The notes under the pieces were generated by a model. It had not been told where the DNA came from and made no database searches. It saw only the letters and a program-made list of their open reading frames with translations. Shown piece by piece: positions 8,493 through 20,015 of a DNA stretch of 64,000 nucleotides (its first letter is position 1; each line of letters opens with the position of its first letter). This stretch comes from Armatimonadota bacterium. Lineage in GTDB: Bacteria; Armatimonadota; UBA5829; JAUSEB01. The position numbers and the translations under genes were made by a program. Location: the NCBI GenBank assembly GCA_030649165.1, contig JAUSGG010000227.1:1-64000 (forward strand), in the 5' to 3' direction.

Positions 8493-11048
8493 ATGAAGCT
8501 CACGTTAACCATCCTCATCGCCACCCTCGCCATCATCTCCCCCGCCGTGTCCCTTACCAAAATGGGAGAGTTGAGCGAGTATTGGCTCGACTACGCCGAC
8601 GTGAAGCAGGGCGCGACCATTTCGTCACCGTGCACGGCGAACCCGGAAGTACCCAAACTGGAGAATATCATCACTCCCTCACGCGGCGGTTTCTTTATCT
8701 TCGCCGACGGCGTCGAGCAGCGCGAAGAGTTTACCATCGACCTCGGGCAGGAGCGGAAGGTCGGCATGTTCATCTTCGAGATGACGAACACCATCGTCTA
8801 CGAGGGCGAAGTCAGGCGCAAGCCGAACAGCCTGACCGTGGGAATTTCGACCCAGAGCAAAGACGGTCCGTGGACCCGGGTGTACAGCCAGGACCCGGCG
8901 GACGTGGTTATGTCATTTGCGCTGGAGAACGTGCCGGCGCGGTGGGTCCGGTTCGACCTCGGCGTCAACAAGGACGGCATCGGCTCGCGGGTCCGAAAGG
9001 CGAAGATTTACCCGAGATACCTGTTGCTGCCCGGGCCTGAGTTGATGAAGGAGTTCCACACGCAGTTCAAACGCGACGCCGCGGGTCTTGGCGAGTTCTG
9101 GCAAGCCGTTGACGCCGGCACATGGGAAGAAGCCTGCGACTTGATGATCGAGCATTTCGCCAAGTGGCCGGATGAGCCAAAGGGCGAGGCGAGTCCCAGA
9201 GTCTCGGCCTGGATGAACAACGAGGTCGAAGCCAGCGGATGTATATACAAGTACGACAGCGCCGACTGGGACTGGTACAGGCTTAGAGCCGAGTGTCCCC
9301 GTCAGTCGCAGGGCGCGCCTCCGGGAGCGTCCACGATCCTCCATTTGCTGAAGACCGCCTACGCCGCGACCGGCGACGAAGCCTACGCAAAGCAGCTTGC
9401 GGCGCTCCTCCGAGACTGGCTTCGGGACATCCCGTGCCCCGGCGTCCATCGCGGACAGGACGGCCACGTCATCATACCGTGGTCGGGCATAATCGCAAGC
9501 CAGCGCACGTGGAGCTTCGGCGAGATGGTCCACGCCATGTTCAAGGAGAACAAATACTGGGACCGCGACCTCAAGATCAACCTGCTCTACTCGCTTTGGC
9601 AGCACATCAACTTCATGCGCGCCATCTCCCCGGAACTCGGCGGCAACTGGCTGACCAACGCCAACTCGTGCATGTTCGACGGAGCTGTCAACTATCCGGA
9701 GTTTACGCAGTACAAGGAATGGCTGGAGAGCTCCAAGTCGTTCTTCGAGATGAGCCTTTTGAGGGATTTTCTTCCTTGCGGCAGGCCGAGCGAAGATTCC
9801 ACTATGTACGTGCCGATCGCGGCCAACCAGGTTACCGGGCAATACGCCGCGATGAAAAAGGCGGGTGTGACGATTTCGCCCGAAGCGCGGAAGAAGATGA
9901 ACACGCTGTGGGACTGCTACGCTCGAGTCTCCTATCCCGACTTGTCGCTTCCGGCCATCGGAGACGCTCACAGAGAATCTCCTCTGATGAAGAACGGCCA
10001 GGCGGTCTCCGGCGCCTATCTGGAGCTTTTCGACCGCCCGGACCTGGCGTACATCAATAGCCAGGGCGCAAAAGGCAAGATGCCGGAGCAGGCATCGCGC
10101 CGGTGCTCCGACTGCGGATGGTACGTGATGAGGTCGGCCTGGGAAACAACGCCGTACACTGACGCCAGGCAGATGTTCCTCAAAGCGTCCAAGAGCCAGG
10201 GACACGGGCATCGAGAGCAGATGTCTTTCACAATGTACGCCTACGGCAGGGAAATCCTGACCGACCCCGGCAACCCGAACTATGGGCTGCCGATCGAGCC
10301 CAAAGTGAGGCCGACCGCGGTCCACAACACCATTTGCGTGGACGAGAAAGACCAGGGCGGAACGCCGGGCATAGAGCATATCTGGTCCGCGACCAAAGGC
10401 GTTGATTTCATAGACGCCGAGTGCGCCCCTTACAAGGGCTTGACGCACCGAAGGCAGATTGTCTTCCTGAAGTCCGGCAGCGGCGCTCCCGACTATTGGC
10501 TCATCCGAGACACCGTGAGTGGCGAAGGAGAGCACACCTTCGACCTGAACTTCCACTTCAGCGAAGGCGCAAAACCCCAAGTGGTGAATGGTTCAGTCTG
10601 CTCGACCTACGCCGAGGGCGGAAACGCGCTTCTGCGCTGCCTCGACCAGTCGGCAACGCCCGATATTGTGGACGCGAACATATCCCTATTGCGCGAACTC
10701 GTTCCATCCAAAATCTGCCGGTTCAGAAAAAACCAATCTGCTCCGGCCACGTTCGAAACGCTCGTAATGCCGTTCAAGGGCCCCAAGTCTCCAACCATCA
10801 AGGCAGGGTACTTACCCCCTGACCCCGAATGCGCCAACGCCGACGCTGTGTGCATAAGAGTAGACAACGGATTCGGCCGCGACTTCATCATAATCGCCGG
10901 CAACCCCGGAACCGCGCTTTTCTTCGACAACGGCGCAATCAAGACCGACGCCGCAATAACAGTCATACGAGCCAACAAAAAGGGCAAGGTCATCTACGCA
11001 TTTGCCGACAGCGGCGCCGCGACATATAGGGGCAAGGCGATAAGATAG
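8493..11048 (+). CDS. Secreted heparinase II/III-like polysaccharide lyase
   Basis: An 851-residue exported protein (signal peptide TLTILIATLAIISPAVS). Residues ~30-185 look like a beta-sandwich carbohydrate-binding domain of discoidin type (FTIDLGQERKVGMFIFEMTN, then RWVRFDLGVNKDG). The middle is an alpha/alpha toroid as in alginate and heparin lyases (NWLTNANSCMFDG with the Asn/His-type site, GRPSEDSTMYVPIAANQ). The C-terminal part matches the heparinase II/III beta-sheet domain (GHGHREQMSFTMYAYGREIL, then TDPGNPNYG). The family cleaves uronic-acid-containing polysaccharides by beta-elimination. The substrate cannot be read from the sequence. Confidence 0.85.
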   Translation: MKLTLTILIATLAIISPAVSLTKMGELSEYWLDYADVKQGATISSPCTANPEVPKLENIITPSRGGFFIFADGVEQREEFTIDLGQERKVGMFIFEMTNTIVYEGEVRRKPNSLTVGISTQSKDGPWTRVYSQDPADVVMSFALENVPARWVRFDLGVNKDGIGSRVRKAKIYPRYLLLPGPELMKEFHTQFKRDAAGLGEFWQAVDAGTWEEACDLMIEHFAKWPDEPKGEASPRVSAWMNNEVEASGCIYKYDSADWDWYRLRAECPRQSQGAPPGASTILHLLKTAYAATGDEAYAKQLAALLRDWLRDIPCPGVHRGQDGHVIIPWSGIIASQRTWSFGEMVHAMFKENKYWDRDLKINLLYSLWQHINFMRAISPELGGNWLTNANSCMFDGAVNYPEFTQYKEWLESSKSFFEMSLLRDFLPCGRPSEDSTMYVPIAANQVTGQYAAMKKAGVTISPEARKKMNTLWDCYARVSYPDLSLPAIGDAHRESPLMKNGQAVSGAYLELFDRPDLAYINSQGAKGKMPEQASRRCSDCGWYVMRSAWETTPYTDARQMFLKASKSQGHGHREQMSFTMYAYGREILTDPGNPNYGLPIEPKVRPTAVHNTICVDEKDQGGTPGIEHIWSATKGVDFIDAECAPYKGLTHRRQIVFLKSGSGAPDYWLIRDTVSGEGEHTFDLNFHFSEGAKPQVVNGSVCSTYAEGGNALLRCLDQSATPDIVDANISLLRELVPSKICRFRKNQSAPATFETLVMPFKGPKSPTIKAGYLPPDPECANADAVCIRVDNGFGRDFIIIAGNPGTALFFDNGAIKTDAAITVIRANKKGKVIYAFADSGAATYRGKAIR

Positions 11049-11199: not shown

Positions 11200-11275
11200 T
11201 GCCGGATAGCTCAGTTGGCAGAGCGACTGACTCTGGATCAGTAGGTCCTAGGTTCGAACCCTAGTCCGGCAGCCA
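11200..11275 (+). tRNA. tRNA-Gln (anticodon CTG)
   Basis: Full cloverleaf of 76 bases including an encoded CCA. The acceptor stem TGCCGGA pairs with TCCGGCA. The D arm contains AGCTCAGTTGGCAGAGC. The anticodon stem ACTGA/TCAGT encloses CTCTGGA, so the anticodon is CTG, reading CAG. The T arm has GGTTCGAACCC. It is the only tRNA I find in the window, whose glnS lies 40 kb away. Confidence 0.95.
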
Positions 11276-11362
11276 GCTCTTCGGTCGATGATCGCTTCGA
11301 GACTTCCACATACAAGACCGCAAACTCATCTCAGTCTCCAGTGTCTCGTCATGCCCCACTCA

Positions 11363-11387
11363 CCCTGGTAATAATACCTGTTTTTCC
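11363..11387 (+). promoter_or_regulatory. Conserved upstream element GGTAATAATACC
   Basis: CCCTGGTAATAATACCTG contains the palindrome GGTAATAATACC and is followed by a T-run. The same element (54495-54518) lies upstream of the PEP-CTERM gene. In both cases it ends about 115 bases before the ATG. Candidate operator or activator site for a small regulon of exported proteins. Confidence 0.55.
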
Positions 11388-11493
11388 TATTTCTGATGGA
11401 TCACTGGAAAATTCGGGGGGGTGATATAATGGGGCTGGCAGGCTGCCGCATAGAGCAACCGCCAATACAACACATCACGAAGGAGAAGGAAAG

Positions 11494-11700
11494 ATGAAGA
11501 AGGTTCTTGCAGTATCTTTTTGTGTCATGCTGTGTTTTCAATGTATGCAGGCTAGTGCCGGAACTATAACTGGTCCCGTCATTAATCTTGCCAACGGACA
11601 TGCTTACTATTTGCTAGACACCAACGGCTATAAGTGGTGGCTGCAGGCGGAGAGCGAAGCCATTTCAATGGGTGGCCACTTCAGCCTTGACTTCCAGGCT
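11494..11700 (+). pseudogene. Truncated secreted protein, lectin-like
   Basis: Begins with a clear signal peptide (MKKVLAVSFCVMLCFQCM, then QASAGTI) after AAGGAGAAGGAA. It continues with NLANGHAYYLLDTNGYKWWL and QAESEAISMGGHF, which resembles the start of C-type-lectin-like domains in PEP-CTERM proteins (NGHxYYLL...W..AE..A...GGHL). Similarity stops near 11690, where the promoter of a Phd/RelE pair begins. The frame runs on meaninglessly to 11880. It looks cut off by insertion of the toxin-antitoxin cassette, though part of the original gene may have been short. Confidence 0.55.
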
Positions 11701-11708
11701 GAATCGGG

Positions 11709-11733
11709 TATAATAGTTGTAGAAGTTACAACT
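11709..11733 (+). promoter_or_regulatory. Promoter and operator of the Phd/RelE pair
   Basis: TATAAT at 11709-11714 is followed directly by the perfect inverted repeat AGTTGTA-GAAGT-TACAACT (11715-11733). A palindrome just downstream of the -10 box fits autorepression by the Phd-type antitoxin. GGAGG precedes the ATG at 11753. Confidence 0.65.
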
Positions 11734-11752
11734 GTTAGCTCTGGAGGCCCGG

Positions 11753-12040
11753 ATGACAACTATCACCGCAAAAACAGCGCGCACGGACTTCAGCGAAGTG
11801 CTCGCAAAGGCTGCTTACTCAAAAGATCGCTTCGTGATCACTCGCAACGGGAAGCGGGCCGCTGCCCTTATTCCGATTGAGGAGTTTGATCTTCTGGAGC
11901 AGTTCATGGAATATCTGGAAGATCAGATGGACTTGAGAGACGCAAGAGAGGCATTGGCGGAGGTCGAAGCTGCGGGTGGTATCGAGGCTTGCTGCCTTCC
12001 TATGCAGGAGTTCTTCGAGAAGCTTGAGGCAAGTGAGTAA
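11753..12040 (+). CDS. Phd/YefM-family antitoxin
   Basis: A 95-residue protein. The N-terminus has the Phd/YefM DNA-binding pattern: TAKTARTDFSEVLAKAAYSK, then DRFVITRNGKRAAALIPIEEF. The rest (LLEQFMEYLEDQMDLRDAREA) is the acidic helical tail that wraps the toxin. Its stop overlaps the toxin's ATG by one base, so the pair is coupled. Confidence 0.88.
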   Translation: MTTITAKTARTDFSEVLAKAAYSKDRFVITRNGKRAAALIPIEEFDLLEQFMEYLEDQMDLRDAREALAEVEAAGGIEACCLPMQEFFEKLEASE

Positions 12041-12372
12041 TGGCCCTACAAGTCTACATCTGTCCCAGGGCCGGTCGGCAGATCGAAGCGTTGCCGAAAG
12101 TAGCCAGGGATAGGATACGGGTCAAGCTGCTTGAGCTTGCCGACAACCCCAGGCCGTCCGGGTGCAGAGTGTTGGAGGCTTCCTCCGATATCTACCGGGT
12201 CCGGGTCGGGGACTACCGAGCGACATACTGCATACGCGACGATAAACTGATGATCCTGGTTCTGAGAGTGGCCAATCGCCGGGAAATCTACGACCGCAAA
12301 GAGCTCAAGGGAATGGTCAAAGATGCTGGGGAATGGCTTGCTGCCCGTAGTCAGGACTCCCGCAACAAGTAG
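12040..12372 (+). CDS. RelE/ParE-family toxin
   Basis: A 110-residue protein with the RelE fold pattern: VYICPRAGRQIEALPKVARD, KLLELADNPRPSGCRVLEAS, YRVRVGDYRATYCIRDDKL and ILVLRVANRREIYDR. The central YRVRVGDYR strand is diagnostic for RelE. The family cleaves ribosome-bound mRNA (RelE) or inhibits gyrase (ParE); the sequence favours the RelE group. It ends two bases before the TTG start of a radical-SAM-like gene. Confidence 0.87.
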   Translation: MALQVYICPRAGRQIEALPKVARDRIRVKLLELADNPRPSGCRVLEASSDIYRVRVGDYRATYCIRDDKLMILVLRVANRREIYDRKELKGMVKDAGEWLAARSQDSRNK

Positions 12373-12374
12373 CG

Positions 12375-13436
12375 TTGTGTATCCTTGTCTGTAGCGTTAA
12401 GACTGTGCAAGTGAATTTGCAGCCCAACCGAACAAATGACCGTTTCGATGGCGTTATCGAGGATATGACGACTGCGGAAGTCAAGGAGATGCTTACGTTC
12501 CTGGCGGATGCCGGCGTCTCAAATATCTCGTTCACGGGTGGTGAGCCGCTGCTGCGGGAGGATATTTGTGAGATAGTCGCTTTTGCCGCCGGACTAGAAG
12601 CGGTCAACGCGTTTGAAGACACGGACGGCGTTTCCCTGCGTCGATCCAGGCCAAGCCTCTATATGAACACGAATGGCGCGTTGTCAACAAGCGAGTTTCT
12701 GAAAGTGTGCCTGGAATGCGGGCTGCGATTGACAGTTTCTTTGCCTGGCCTGAGAACCTACCAAGAACTGACGGCGGGAGGGGACGCTCGCAAAGCATTG
12801 GGAGCCATGGAGGCTGCCAGCGCTATGGGCGTGCAAGTCACTGCGGCGATAACCATCACCCGAATCAACGAACACGAACTGGTCGAAACCATTGCGGCGG
12901 CTCTCCTTGCCGGAGCGGACTCCATCTTGCTCAACCGGTTTCTTGCTGGGGGAAGAGGTTTGGGGAAGATCTCAGAGCTATCTTTGGACGTGGATCAGGT
13001 CAAGCGGATGCTTCTGATCGCCGACGAGGTACTGCACACCGCTGGAAGGTACGGCAGGATGGGCACAGAAGTCCCCGCTTGCCTGATAGCTGGGTTGCAG
13101 TTTCGTAACCTGACTGTGGGCACGCGCTGCAGCGCAGCCCTACACTTCGTGGCAATAGACCCATCGGGCTATGTGAGGGTGTGCAACCACTCCCCAGTTA
13201 GATTGTGCCACTACACCGACATAGACAGCGTGTGGCAGCATCCGCTGTGGCAAGCGTACACACGGCGAAGCCTGCTACCCACGTCCTGCTCAGGGTGCCA
13301 CTCACGACCTGACTGCGACGCCGGATGCAGAGAAGCGGCTCGGCTCGTGTCGGGCGATCCTATGGTGGACGACCCGTGTTTGTTGTTCGACGCCCAGCTT
13401 GCTGATATGAACCAAGGTAATAGGAGGTCAATATGA
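12375..13436 (+). CDS. Radical SAM/SPASM-like protein with degenerate cluster motif
   Basis: About 353 residues from a TTG start. The core has FTGGEPLLREDICEIV (the GGEP SAM-binding motif), LYMNTNGAL, and an alternating alpha/beta pattern of a partial TIM barrel. The C-terminus is SPASM-like, with cysteines in FVAIDPSGYVRVCNH, SCSGCHSRPDCDAGC and the final DDPC. The CxxxCxxC motif is not intact: the N-terminus reads CILVCSVK, with lysine at the third cysteine. The Phd/RelE pair ends two bases upstream, so the original N-terminus may have been lost to the insertion. The stop overlaps the next ATG by four bases. Confidence 0.7.
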   Translation: MCILVCSVKTVQVNLQPNRTNDRFDGVIEDMTTAEVKEMLTFLADAGVSNISFTGGEPLLREDICEIVAFAAGLEAVNAFEDTDGVSLRRSRPSLYMNTNGALSTSEFLKVCLECGLRLTVSLPGLRTYQELTAGGDARKALGAMEAASAMGVQVTAAITITRINEHELVETIAAALLAGADSILLNRFLAGGRGLGKISELSLDVDQVKRMLLIADEVLHTAGRYGRMGTEVPACLIAGLQFRNLTVGTRCSAALHFVAIDPSGYVRVCNHSPVRLCHYTDIDSVWQHPLWQAYTRRSLLPTSCSGCHSRPDCDAGCREAARLVSGDPMVDDPCLLFDAQLADMNQGNRRSI

Positions 13437-14176
13437 TTCGTCGATACACCAAGGTTGGTCCGGTCATTCTGTTCATTCTTCTGACTGCGGCCGACTGCTC
13501 ATCCATTGGCACCGCTGCTGTCACGAAGAAGCCCGATCTTAGCCGCTTCGTGCCCAACGGCTATCAGTTGGTCAGATCTGCGGAAGGTGACCTGAACGGC
13601 GACGGACAGAAAGATGTCGCCCTGGCTGTGCAGGCACGTGACATCAACTACGGATCCGAGAGCAGGTTGGCCAAGATCATAGTCCTTTTCCGCCAAGGCA
13701 ATAACCTCAGGAAAGCTTGGCAGCATTGGGATCGCTATAGTTACTTGATTGGAGAAGGCGAAGGGCCTGTCGTTAACAAGCACACGATTGAGATCGGTGA
13801 CTTCAACGGAGATGGAACCAAGGAAATCGCTTTCCGTATGACGAATATGGGTGCTTCGGACGGGACAATATCTATAAGGGTGTTCTCGTGGGGCAAAGGG
13901 AGATTCCTGAAACTGCTGGAACTCCAGCATCCTCTTGAGGGTGGTGTCAAATACCAGGCCGGAAACACGTTTGCGCCGGGAAAAGCCGTGATGGTCTACC
14001 AGATGATCTGGGCTGACAAGGAGAGCCACGCCGATCCCCACCGCTATGAGGGCGAATACTATCGGTGGAATCCCAAGGCACGAAAGTACGAGTGCTACAA
14101 GAAGGTGGAGACTAAGGCTAAGGGAGAGCGAGGACTGCGGGAGCTTCATTCGATCACGAAGAAGCTCTGGAGCTAG
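13433..14176 (+). CDS. Exported FG-GAP/VCBS-repeat-like protein
   Basis: A 247-residue protein with a hydrophobic N-terminal signal (VGPVILFILLTAADCSS); the Cys after AAD could be a lipobox. Two calcium-binding-loop-like repeats are visible: GDLNGDGQKDVALAV and GDFNGDGTKEIAFRM, as in integrin-type FG-GAP propellers. ATG 13433 overlaps the stop of the radical-SAM-like gene and has AGGAGGT upstream. Likely cell-surface or periplasmic, function unknown. Confidence 0.7.
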   Translation: MIRRYTKVGPVILFILLTAADCSSIGTAAVTKKPDLSRFVPNGYQLVRSAEGDLNGDGQKDVALAVQARDINYGSESRLAKIIVLFRQGNNLRKAWQHWDRYSYLIGEGEGPVVNKHTIEIGDFNGDGTKEIAFRMTNMGASDGTISIRVFSWGKGRFLKLLELQHPLEGGVKYQAGNTFAPGKAVMVYQMIWADKESHADPHRYEGEYYRWNPKARKYECYKKVETKAKGERGLRELHSITKKLWS

Positions 14177-14330
14177 AGTTGTGGGTGGAGAGACCCCCGC
14201 AAACTGCAGGCGGAAGGGATTTGGACGCTGCGCTGACTGGCCATTGTGTGCACATTTCTGTTCTTGTCAGTTCTGTACGGAACTGGTTCATATCATTGGA
14301 CACGATTACTCGTGTAAGGAGTTGAACAGC

Positions 14331-14966
14331 ATGAAAAGATTGTTACTCGTACTTGTGCCATTTCTCGCGATCTTCGTTCTTCCCGCAAGGGCAATACCTC
14401 TGTCCCAACAGAAGAAAGACGTTCCGCTACCCAACGGACTGAAGGCATCAATAACGTGTCCGAAAGGCTGGGAACACTCCACATGGCGCGCGGACGATAA
14501 CTCTAGCGCGGTACTGGGGATCAGAGTCTCCCACACGATATCATCCGCGAACCAAGAGGCGGACATCATGATGTCGCCAAACATGGAGATCGCCTTCGGC
14601 GGCATCTCGGTCCATGGCAGCATGGAGGAGGCGCAGGCAAAGGCCAAGAGGCTTGTCCAGGACTGGAAACACACTGCCCAAGCTTCGATGGAGGATTGGA
14701 ACGAGAGCCGTTTCGCAACCAAGCAAAGGTCTATCAAGACTTACGGCAGTGGTAGGTACAAAGCAATCGTGGTCTATCACGACTACAGAGGGGCCGATTC
14801 CTCGTACCGCGACGGGATCATAGTTGCTGTGGGCGGCAAACACAAGGACAAACTCGGGAAAGATTACACGATGATATACCGCGTGCTGATAACCGGTGGT
14901 CAGTACTGCTGGAAGACAATGCCAAGAGACATCGAGTCCGTTCTCGCAAGCATAAGAGTGCCATAG
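14331..14966 (+). CDS. Exported protein of unknown function
   Basis: A 211-residue protein with signal peptide MKRLLLVLVPFLAIFVLPAR. The start at 14331 is chosen because it opens the signal peptide after TAAGGAG; the frame is open further upstream without a ribosome site. The mature part has two halves separated by a helical stretch (MEEAQAKAKRLVQDWKHTAQ) and ends IESVLASIRVP, reminiscent of PsbP/DcrB-type folds whose last helix reads like this. That comparison is only a hint. It sits between the FG-GAP gene and the peptidase fusion in the same direction. Confidence 0.65.
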   Translation: MKRLLLVLVPFLAIFVLPARAIPLSQQKKDVPLPNGLKASITCPKGWEHSTWRADDNSSAVLGIRVSHTISSANQEADIMMSPNMEIAFGGISVHGSMEEAQAKAKRLVQDWKHTAQASMEDWNESRFATKQRSIKTYGSGRYKAIVVYHDYRGADSSYRDGIIVAVGGKHKDKLGKDYTMIYRVLITGGQYCWKTMPRDIESVLASIRVP

Positions 14967-15049
14967 TGGGTGTTACTGTGCTAGCTGATAGGAACGTGTA
15001 GGACGCTCGGGCGACTATCACACTGATATTCTGTTGTCAGGGAGTAAAC

Positions 15050-16873
15050 ATGAGACGTAGACTGATTCCTTTCTCTGCAGTAGTGCTGTTGTGTCTGTTC
15101 GCCAACCCGTCAATGGCGGCCAAGAACAGCACCGTTGACACTCTGATCAACGCCGCCATACTGCTGGGCAGCGGGCCGAAACTCGAAAAGGCTTTAGGTG
15201 ATATGGGCAGCCAGTCGCTGGAGCAACACGAATCGGTAAGCACAGACGCTGCACTTAACGCCAGGGCAGGCAACGTAGTAAACAGGTTGCTGTCCCGGTC
15301 GGCTCGAACGGACCTGAAGTACCAGGTCAAGGTGCTGAACAAGAGTGAGGTGAACGCCTACGCGCTTCCCGGCGGTCACTTGTATGTAAACGCAGGGCTG
15401 TTGCGACTGCACGGGGTATCTGACGACGAGTTGGCTTATGTGCTTGGGCACGAACTCGCGCACACAAACAAGGGCCACGGCCTCAAGCAGATGAAGAACT
15501 CGATCCTGACGGGAACCTTCCTCAAGGCCGTTGCGAAGGACGCCAAAGTCAAGCTTTATGGAGAAATGACGCAGCAGCTCTTCCTGTCCGGCCGGTCACG
15601 TAAGGATGAACTGGAGGCCGACGCCGCAGGCTTCGACTACGCCGTAAGCGCAGGCTATGACCCTGCGGGCGGGCTTGCGTTCATGCGCAGGCTGGAGACG
15701 CTTTCCACCGGTCGCAAGGACCTGTTCCAGCAGTTCTTCTCCACGCATCCTCCCTCGCACGACAGAGCCGAGATTCTCAAGAGCAAGATGCTCGCTCAGG
15801 AATACGGAGCCGACTTCAAGACGCCGGCCAACATGGCTACCTTGACCGAGTTCTCTCGCTACTCCGGTCCGCCGCGAAACAAGATCGGACTTCTGACAGA
15901 CAAGATCGTCTACCTGGGGGATGACCGGTCCGGTGAGAAAACGGTCTGGTCGAACACCTTCTACCTGACGAGTGAGGAAGTCAGCAGGTGCACATCCGCC
16001 AAGATCAAGTTCCAGATCAAGGCGATTCCCCGCAAAGACCCCATTGTCTGTATCAACCGAACTGAGATCGGCCGCGCGGTGGCGAAGAGCGACAAGTGGG
16101 AGACCTGGGAATTCCCGGTCGATCCGAAACTACTGCGTGGCAACCAAGCAAACCTGCTGGACATGGAGACGTTCATCCCGGATATGTGGCGGTCGTACGA
16201 TGACTGTGAGGTCAAGCAGGTGTGGCTGGTTCTGACATATCGAGACCGGGACGTGGTAGAGCAGCCTCCCGATCTACATCCTAATGGTTACGACGGTTTT
16301 CAGTATCCAGTTACATTCAAATCGAATCCTCCGAAGTACTACCCTGGAGAGTACACGCAGTTCTTTGGCGATGAGAATACACTGAGCACTCCACACTACT
16401 ACGGTCACCTGGGTGCAGATTTGGCCACATCTGACAGACGAATTCGTTCTGCATCCGCGGGTTGGGTAGCGCGAAAGCAGAAGGACGCGGGCGATGGCTG
16501 GGGCAATTACGTGGTGATTGGCCATGAGCTCCCAGGAGAAGGCGTTGTCTATTCATTGTACGGCCATCTTGCTGCCAAGTTCGACCCTAACTTGCCTAAC
16601 CCCAGCACTACTCCCAACGAACAGAGCCGCGTGCAGCGTGGCCAACTCATCGGGACTGAAGGGAATACCGGTTTCTCGTCCGGCGGCAGCGGCAAAGGAA
16701 TCCATCTGCACTTTGCGATAATGTCATCACTGCCCAAGGTGCCGGGTGGATACACTGGGGCGAATTTCGGCAGTCTCAAGAACCAGGAGAGAAGCATTAA
16801 GCATAAGGGCACCATCTACTACAACCCCATCGTTTTCGTGCAAGAGCACTCGGCACCTGAACTCCCGTGGTGA
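15050..16873 (+). CDS. Exported M48-M23 double peptidase
   Basis: A 607-residue exported protein (signal peptide IPFSAVVLLCLFANPSMA). Residues ~60-270 are an M48 metallopeptidase: GGHLYVNAGLL, then the HExxH zinc motif in LGHELAHTNKGH and the third ligand in DELEADAAGFDYA, as in BepA/LoiP. A middle beta domain follows (~275-400). The C-terminal ~190 residues form an M23 lysostaphin-like domain: HYYGHLGADLA (H..D), VYSLYGHL, G..G.TG and the HLHF motif. The two families act on misfolded envelope proteins and on peptidoglycan. Both zinc sites look intact. One chain combining them is uncommon. Confidence 0.88.
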   Translation: MRRRLIPFSAVVLLCLFANPSMAAKNSTVDTLINAAILLGSGPKLEKALGDMGSQSLEQHESVSTDAALNARAGNVVNRLLSRSARTDLKYQVKVLNKSEVNAYALPGGHLYVNAGLLRLHGVSDDELAYVLGHELAHTNKGHGLKQMKNSILTGTFLKAVAKDAKVKLYGEMTQQLFLSGRSRKDELEADAAGFDYAVSAGYDPAGGLAFMRRLETLSTGRKDLFQQFFSTHPPSHDRAEILKSKMLAQEYGADFKTPANMATLTEFSRYSGPPRNKIGLLTDKIVYLGDDRSGEKTVWSNTFYLTSEEVSRCTSAKIKFQIKAIPRKDPIVCINRTEIGRAVAKSDKWETWEFPVDPKLLRGNQANLLDMETFIPDMWRSYDDCEVKQVWLVLTYRDRDVVEQPPDLHPNGYDGFQYPVTFKSNPPKYYPGEYTQFFGDENTLSTPHYYGHLGADLATSDRRIRSASAGWVARKQKDAGDGWGNYVVIGHELPGEGVVYSLYGHLAAKFDPNLPNPSTTPNEQSRVQRGQLIGTEGNTGFSSGGSGKGIHLHFAIMSSLPKVPGGYTGANFGSLKNQERSIKHKGTIYYNPIVFVQEHSAPELPW

Positions 16874-18887: not shown

Positions 18888-20015
18888 TCACTCAGACCCA
18901 CCCTGATCCGAACCCGACTCCGCGCCCTGCCCTTCGAGATAAGCCAGTAGTTCGCGTTTGTTTATCCGGGCTCCAAGCACGTACGCGTCGGCGCCGCCGT
19001 AGACGAGAATGATGTCACCCTTATACTCGAAGCTTCCCGCGGGAAAGATGCAGTTCAGCTTGGTCGGTTGAGGCCATGGGGAGTTGACTTCATAGGGCGT
19101 CTCAGGTTCGAGAAGGCCGTCGCATCGGGCTTCCACTATGTCCTCTGGGCTGTCCATACTGAACCTGTTGAAGTTCAGGATAGCGTAACCCGCGCAGTAG
19201 TCCCTTTCTCCCGCGGCGGAGTAATTGCCCTTATGGTAATCCGCAAGGTACCGGTTGTTCCCGAGCGGAAGGGGAGCGGAGCCGGCTCCTAACCAGGAGA
19301 TCATATACCTTGGGTCCTGCTCTGCTCGCATGATGGGGCCGATATCCCGCCACTCACCAGTAGGCGAGTCGCTCACTGCAAGCGAAATAGTGAAATCACC
19401 TTGAGCGCCAACCATCGGCCTGTGCAGCATCATGTATTTGCCCTGGATTGGCCCGGGCATAATGACCGCGTCCTTGTTCGGATAGTCATTCACATCGCCG
19501 CGGGCAGGGCCAAGCTTCGTCCAGTTCAGCAGGTCTGTAGACTCGGCCAGGCAAATGTTGACTCTCTCAGGCATGCTCAGACTGGCGTTGAAGCCGCAAT
19601 AGACCATGTAAAAAGTGTCGTCGATCCGGGTGATCCTTTGGTCTTCGACTCCATTGTAGTCGTAGCCCGCTGGGTCATCCGTCGGCGCCACAAGCGGATG
19701 GGCAAAACGTTTCAGCAACTCCAACTGGGGCGTAAATACCGCGAGTCCCACCGCGGACCTGAGCGGCGGGCAGCCTGGCACATCCCTGGGCAGCCCCCTG
19801 TAGTATACCGCCACGACACCTTCGCTGAGCTTGGGGTCATCCAACGAATGATCGCCGAGTATGCCTCGAATGAGTTGGTCGTTCCGCGACGACCTCTCCA
19901 GGCGGACAATTGTTGGGTTGAGGGTGAACGCATTGTCCCAGCTATCAGGGGCTGCTGAGATGAGCGGTTGCCCCTGGTTGAGACGTTCGATGTTGAGTCT
20001 TCCACTTACTGCCAA
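18888..20015 (-). CDS. GH130-family glycosidase/phosphorylase
   Basis: A 375-residue protein with the five-bladed propeller of GH130: FTLNPTIVRL, VVAVYYRGLPRD, LAVFTPQLELLKRFAHPLV, then YNGVEDQRITRIDDTFYMVY with the conserved GVEDxRI, and INICLAESTDLLNW-type repeats later. No signal peptide, so cytoplasmic. The family acts on beta-mannosides, either as phosphorylases or hydrolases; which one depends on residues I cannot judge here. Its 3' end abuts the VapB/VapC remnant. Confidence 0.82.
   Translation of the reverse strand: MAVSGRLNIERLNQGQPLISAAPDSWDNAFTLNPTIVRLERSSRNDQLIRGILGDHSLDDPKLSEGVVAVYYRGLPRDVPGCPPLRSAVGLAVFTPQLELLKRFAHPLVAPTDDPAGYDYNGVEDQRITRIDDTFYMVYCGFNASLSMPERVNICLAESTDLLNWTKLGPARGDVNDYPNKDAVIMPGPIQGKYMMLHRPMVGAQGDFTISLAVSDSPTGEWRDIGPIMRAEQDPRYMISWLGAGSAPLPLGNNRYLADYHKGNYSAAGERDYCAGYAILNFNRFSMDSPEDIVEARCDGLLEPETPYEVNSPWPQPTKLNCIFPAGSFEYKGDIILVYGGADAYVLGARINKRELLAYLEGQGAESGSDQGGSE

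Follow-up and report, generated by a model that had tools for sequence, protein, structure and literature searches.

Whether one exported chain can carry both an M48 and an M23 peptidase with complete active sites, and what such a chain would do, is the question raised by a gene in the window (the whole 64,000-nucleotide stretch of Armatimonadota bacterium DNA that was analysed). The initial annotation had read M48 and M23 motifs in a single exported 607-residue protein and held that a protease able to clear envelope proteins and cut wall at one place would be new. The coordinates, length and open frame of the gene were confirmed, and its features are collected in Table 1.

Table 1. Features of the M48-M23 gene; positions are those of the window.
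Feature	Position	Strand	Basis or remark
Whole gene	15050..16873	+	607 codons plus stop, uninterrupted frame
Shine-Dalgarno-like AGGGAG	15039..15044	+	5 nt before ATG; read from sequence, putative
Signal peptide, residues 1-23 (MRRRLIPFSAVVLLCLFANPSMA)	15050..15118	+	Sec type, no lipobox (VLLC); Kyte-Doolittle
Peptidase_M48 domain, residues 70-245	15257..15784	+	PF01435, E 1.5e-26; PDB 3c37, E 4.2e-25
HELAH, residues 134-138 (HExxH)	15449..15463	+	H134, E135 and H138 invariant in alignment A2
DELEADAAG, residues 186-194, third zinc ligand E187	15605..15631	+	E187 invariant in alignment A2
HPx4R active-site plug, residues 233-239	15746..15766	+	Corresponds to BepA H246/P247/R252 (PMC7950410)
Orphan middle module, residues 270-405, probably all-beta	15857..16264	+	No Pfam or PDB match; low-confidence model
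Peptidase_M23 domain, residues 452-559	16403..16726	+	PF01551, E 1.6e-11
HLGAD, residues 453-457, M23 Hx3D motif (H453, D457)	16406..16420	+	Invariant in alignment A3
HLHF, residues 552-555, M23 HxH motif (H552, H554)	16703..16714	+	Invariant in alignment A3
C-terminal tail, residues 560-607 (GYTGANF...R..KGTIYYNPIVF)	16727..16870	+	Common to locus L165; BLASTP

The proposed architecture was borne out by a Pfam search, in which M48 (93.8 bits, curated cut-off 20.3) and M23 (44.6 bits, curated cut-off 28.7) both exceeded their thresholds and lay far outside what chance would give, and no other family was matched in the protein at E values up to 1. In an alignment of the window protein with 11 M48 relatives (A2), H134, E135, H138 and E187, together with the plug residues H233, P234 and R239, were invariant. 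The M48 part has the features of family membership, namely a profile match over the cut-off, HExxH with a third glutamate ligand, and the HPx4R plug. In E. coli BepA, this plug (H246, P247 and R252) coordinates the zinc and occludes the active site, and its movement is needed for BepA function; the plug is conserved through M48, which is plug-gated and prefers unfolded substrates (PMC7950410). By its motifs, the M48 site of the window protein is probably self-gated in the same manner.

In the M23 part, the zinc ligand within HYYGHLGAD (residues 449-457) is the second histidine, which gives the pairing H453/D457. The residues H453, D457, H506, H552 and H554 were invariant in an alignment of the window protein with five M23 relatives (A3), and they match the M23 ligands and water-activating histidines described for the family (PMC9662197). 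A profile match over the cut-off, the H(x)nD and HxH motifs and the extra active-site histidine (H506) were all present. The claim that both active sites are intact in one exported chain was upheld by these residues and by the N-terminal signal detected by hydropathy, and the chain is very probably real and both its sites intact.

Residues 4-25 were the sole strongly hydrophobic segment of the 607-residue protein on the Kyte-Doolittle scale, with 19-residue windows above 1.3 found at the N-terminus only. The highest 19-residue window past residue 40 was 0.64, and the maximum between residues 386 and 446 was negative, so that no second signal sequence was detected by hydropathy near the M23 half. 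The signal peptide cleavage site (between SMA and A) was assigned by eye, and no lipobox was seen at Cys15 (VLLC, residues 12-15) when the sequence was read. Between residues 381 and 455 there was no in-frame ATG, and two GTG codons were present. Since the M23 half has neither its own signal peptide nor an ATG near the junction, read-through of two genes is unlikely, and since the sole signal peptide lies at the start of the chain, M23 would be exported only within the whole chain. On this reading of its sequence, the product is a genuine, if predicted, exported two-headed zinc peptidase.

The two heads are separated by a region for which no Pfam family (residues about 260-450) and no PDB sequence (residues 273-410) was matched. 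Residues 270-408 alone gave an all-beta AlphaFold2 model, built with no alignment and of low confidence (pLDDT 53.5, pTM 0.50), and a Foldseek search with this model returned nothing below E 0.001; the whole protein, also predicted without an alignment, reached a pLDDT of 33.8. A beta-sandwich is plausible from the model. A jelly-roll-like fold stays a guess because the model confidence is low and Foldseek gave no significant match, and a carbohydrate-binding role is likewise a guess.

Codon usage and gene neighbours were also recorded. At codon 393, close to where the M23 part begins, GC3 dropped from 0.75 to 0.59; the maximum z of this shift (4.06) was the second highest among the 33 window genes tested, and other window genes had shifts with z of 4.90, 3.85 and 3.61. 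The change fits a young fusion, to which it lends weak support. The gene just upstream (14046-14966) probably starts at an internal ATG (MKRLLLVLVPFLAIFVLPARA, signal peptide); its predicted product is small and secreted and had no confident match in Pfam. Further upstream lie a tRNA-Gln (CTG; 11200-11275), a Phd/YefM antitoxin and ParE-type toxin pair (11753-12040 and 12040-12372) and a radical SAM protein (12375-13436), and the stretch from 11200 to 13436 resembles the border of an insertion. Secreted polysaccharide enzymes in the neighbourhood were a heparinase-like protein (8493-11048) and a GH130 protein (18888-20015), both assigned by Pfam.

The distribution of the architecture was then compared with that of its parts. 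The M48 part had relatives in 100 of the 101 genomes searched, the best with about 38% identity over the domain. For the C-terminal half, only generic M23 matches were obtained in a set of 291 genomes of the phylum that contains the window's own genome. A profile made from A3 detected M23 in 241 of these 291 genomes; among the matches listed, the window protein alone matched nearly the whole profile, and among the best 30 loci the window's locus alone had M48 in frame. Conversely, the M23 profile found M23 in none of the long-frame M48 genes of the phylum among the matches listed, and no M23 occurred in an M48 frame in the best 80 M48 loci from a scan of GTDB genome contigs of 84,980 species. 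M48 was not found in the M23 proteins of 788 genomes from the phyla of the Phycisphaerae and Bryobacteraceae loci, and plasmids, phages and viral contigs contained no M48+M23 fusion. A scan of genome contigs with the C-terminal half, which is sensitive to close relatives only, yielded no full-length homologue. As a result, the full chain was counted once and was absent from the 290 other genomes of the phylum. Elsewhere in the own genome, separate genes gave four further M48 matches and six further M23 matches. The pairing seems rare, and unrelated M48-M23 fusions may occur elsewhere. Since an orthologue of the full chain was not found in the searched collections, there is no sign of selection on a joint function.

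Both parts are met with in other company. M48 relatives with long C-terminal additions were frequent, many of their frames having 450-800 residues. Two M48 proteins (L055:2746-4695 and L115:2410-4131) have C-terminal regions that look carbohydrate-binding, the latter with a CBM_4_9 match (E 9.5e-4) under the curated cut-off. The M23 part with its tail has its closest relative in L165, a protein of the phylum to which the Phycisphaerae locus belongs (BLASTP, 31% identity over 158 aa, tail included). In L165, six NHL repeats stand in place of the M48 and middle modules and are followed by the same M23 module and tail, with the common tail pattern GY-G--F...R...G-iY-NP--F. Because the M23 module and tail also follow an unrelated exported NHL propeller in another phylum, they behave as a plug-in domain. 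With C-terminal additions usual among the M48 relatives and the M23 module mobile, a protein such as that of the window is what the joining of two exported, freely shuffled modules would be expected to give. Elsewhere in the own genome (contig C266, 11879-14623; loci L162 and L163), two M23 domains lie 2.4 kb apart, both reported in 1351-aa frames. HEAT-like repeats were seen at the N-terminus of the part that was read, and its C-terminal region resembles a TIM barrel; this, too, is an unusual architecture for M23. An M23 gene adjoins an M48 gene in L042:2172-3969 (Ozemobacteraceae) and L089:2803-6382 (Bryobacteraceae). Such adjacency was rejected as a signal, as 2 of 80 loci is not significant against about 0.6 expected, the latter being our own estimate from the M23 density over 495 kb of the own genome.

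Among known systems, a survey of more than 90,000 M23 sequences recorded more than 1,000 architectures, and the catalytic partners named there (Rpf-like, amidase, M56 and NlpC/P60) together make up under 1% of M23 entries; M48 is absent from these named partners (PMC9662197, InterPro survey). M23-M56 fusions (M56 as in BlaR1/MecR1) likewise join M23 and a zinc peptidase of a protein-cutting family in one chain, whereas the partner in the window protein is a predicted soluble exported M48 domain, and no M56 domain was matched in it by Pfam at E values up to 1. Since M56 is a zinc peptidase family acting on proteins, a chain of M23 and a protein peptidase is an already known kind, of which the window protein is a variant with M48 instead of M56. 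The interpretation offered at the outset was sustained in part: two complete catalytic sets in one exported M48+M23 chain were unmatched in the other genomes searched, but the M23-M56 precedent exists (PMC9662197). In neither the genomes nor the literature searched was M48+M23 common or characterised, and no description of M48 and M23 in one protein was found in the literature.

BepA, which was aligned with the M48 part using PDB 6sar, shares with the window protein an exported soluble M48 domain, the zinc ligands, the HPx4R plug and a second part after the N-terminal M48, but this second part is a TPR domain in BepA and an orphan beta-rich module with M23 here. Identity with BepA was rejected (64 bits vs an NCBIfam equivalog cut-off of 570, and no TPR match in Pfam). 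Over the M48 part, the highest NCBIfam score was that of LoiP, an E. coli M48 lipoprotein (72 bits); this lies far under the cut-off of 365 bits and the window protein has no lipobox, so this identity was rejected as well. LoiP also has no M23 domain, unlike the window protein. The closest solved relative of the M48 part is the Geobacter sulfurreducens protein of PDB 3c37 (residues 45-246 matched), a stand-alone M48 protein of 253 residues, in contrast to the fused chain described here.

From these comparisons, a soluble M48 envelope protease of the BepA/LoiP type may have been extended at its C-terminus by a beta-rich module and an M23 wall peptidase. Of the two heads, M23 would bind and cut peptide links of the peptidoglycan, so the chain would be held on the sacculus. 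The M48 head would stay latent behind its HPx4R plug until opened by unfolded or stalled envelope proteins, and would then degrade envelope proteins at the place on the wall where the M23 head sits. The likeliest benefit of such coupling would be protein clearance where the wall is opened. Both Pfam domains over their cut-offs, full sets of catalytic residues, the retained plug, a single N-terminal signal peptide, the recurrence of the M23 module and tail behind an NHL propeller in another phylum and the frequent long C-terminal additions among M48 relatives support this mechanism; the singleton status, the separate M48 and M23 genes of the own genome, the GC3 change at codon 393 and the low-confidence structures count against it. 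Taken whole, this picture of a BepA/LoiP-type envelope protease, latent and brought to the wall by an active M23 module, is a tentative proposal, which we put somewhat below an even chance. It is distinctly unlikely that the plug-gated M48 and M23 heads regulate or feed each other, by activation in cis or by protein clearance at sites of wall opening, and no description of such a coupling was found in the literature searched.

Other explanations are conceivable for the same chain. It may be a recent lineage-specific fusion with no selected joint role, whose modules share a signal peptide and each do their usual job or none. The single occurrence in 291 genomes, the GC3 shift close to where the M23 part begins and the other M48 and M23 genes of the own genome all agree with this; however, both active sites are fully intact in an undamaged frame, and similar GC3 shifts occur in other window genes (4.90, 3.85 and 3.61), which leaves it unlikely. 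Far less credit is due to the suspicion that two genes became one through chimeric assembly or a sequencing error, a doubt already attached to the initial annotation. The searched collections yielded no second, independent copy of the junction, the assembly is metagenome-like (266 contigs, 2.46% contamination) and GC3 shifts near the junction, but the reading frame is nowhere interrupted, neither an in-frame ATG nor a signal peptide for the M23 half lies there and the middle module separates the two parts; an artefact is highly improbable.

A protein that leaves the cell would read differently, as a degradative enzyme acting on other organisms' cells or debris, in which M23 opens foreign walls, M48 digests the released protein and the beta module binds glycans. 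The signal peptide without a lipobox or membrane anchor, the heparinase-like and GH130 neighbours and the related M23 module in an NHL-propeller protein are consistent with this. Against it, both the type of M48 and its plug belong to intracellular-envelope quality-control proteases, no sign of passage across the outer membrane was seen, and the middle module had no matched fold or ligand (Pfam, PDB, Foldseek), so we regard it as unlikely. Control in cis, whereby the M48 head would cut the middle region and free or activate the M23 head, like propeptide removal in other M23 enzymes, draws on the N-terminal part of Csd3, which occludes its M23 site (PMC9662197), and on the fact that the two heads share a chain whose middle region is long. 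A plug-gated M48 that prefers unfolded substrates (PMC7950410) fits poorly with this, and such control is very unlikely.

In summary, the gene as it stands represents a rare domain combination in one genome, and without any orthologue found, the significance of the M48-M23 fusion is limited. If both heads work, the protein would offer a natural setting in which to ask whether wall opening and protein quality control in the envelope are coordinated in one molecule. Its main value is as a pointer to M23 modules shuffled onto exported proteins of several kinds.
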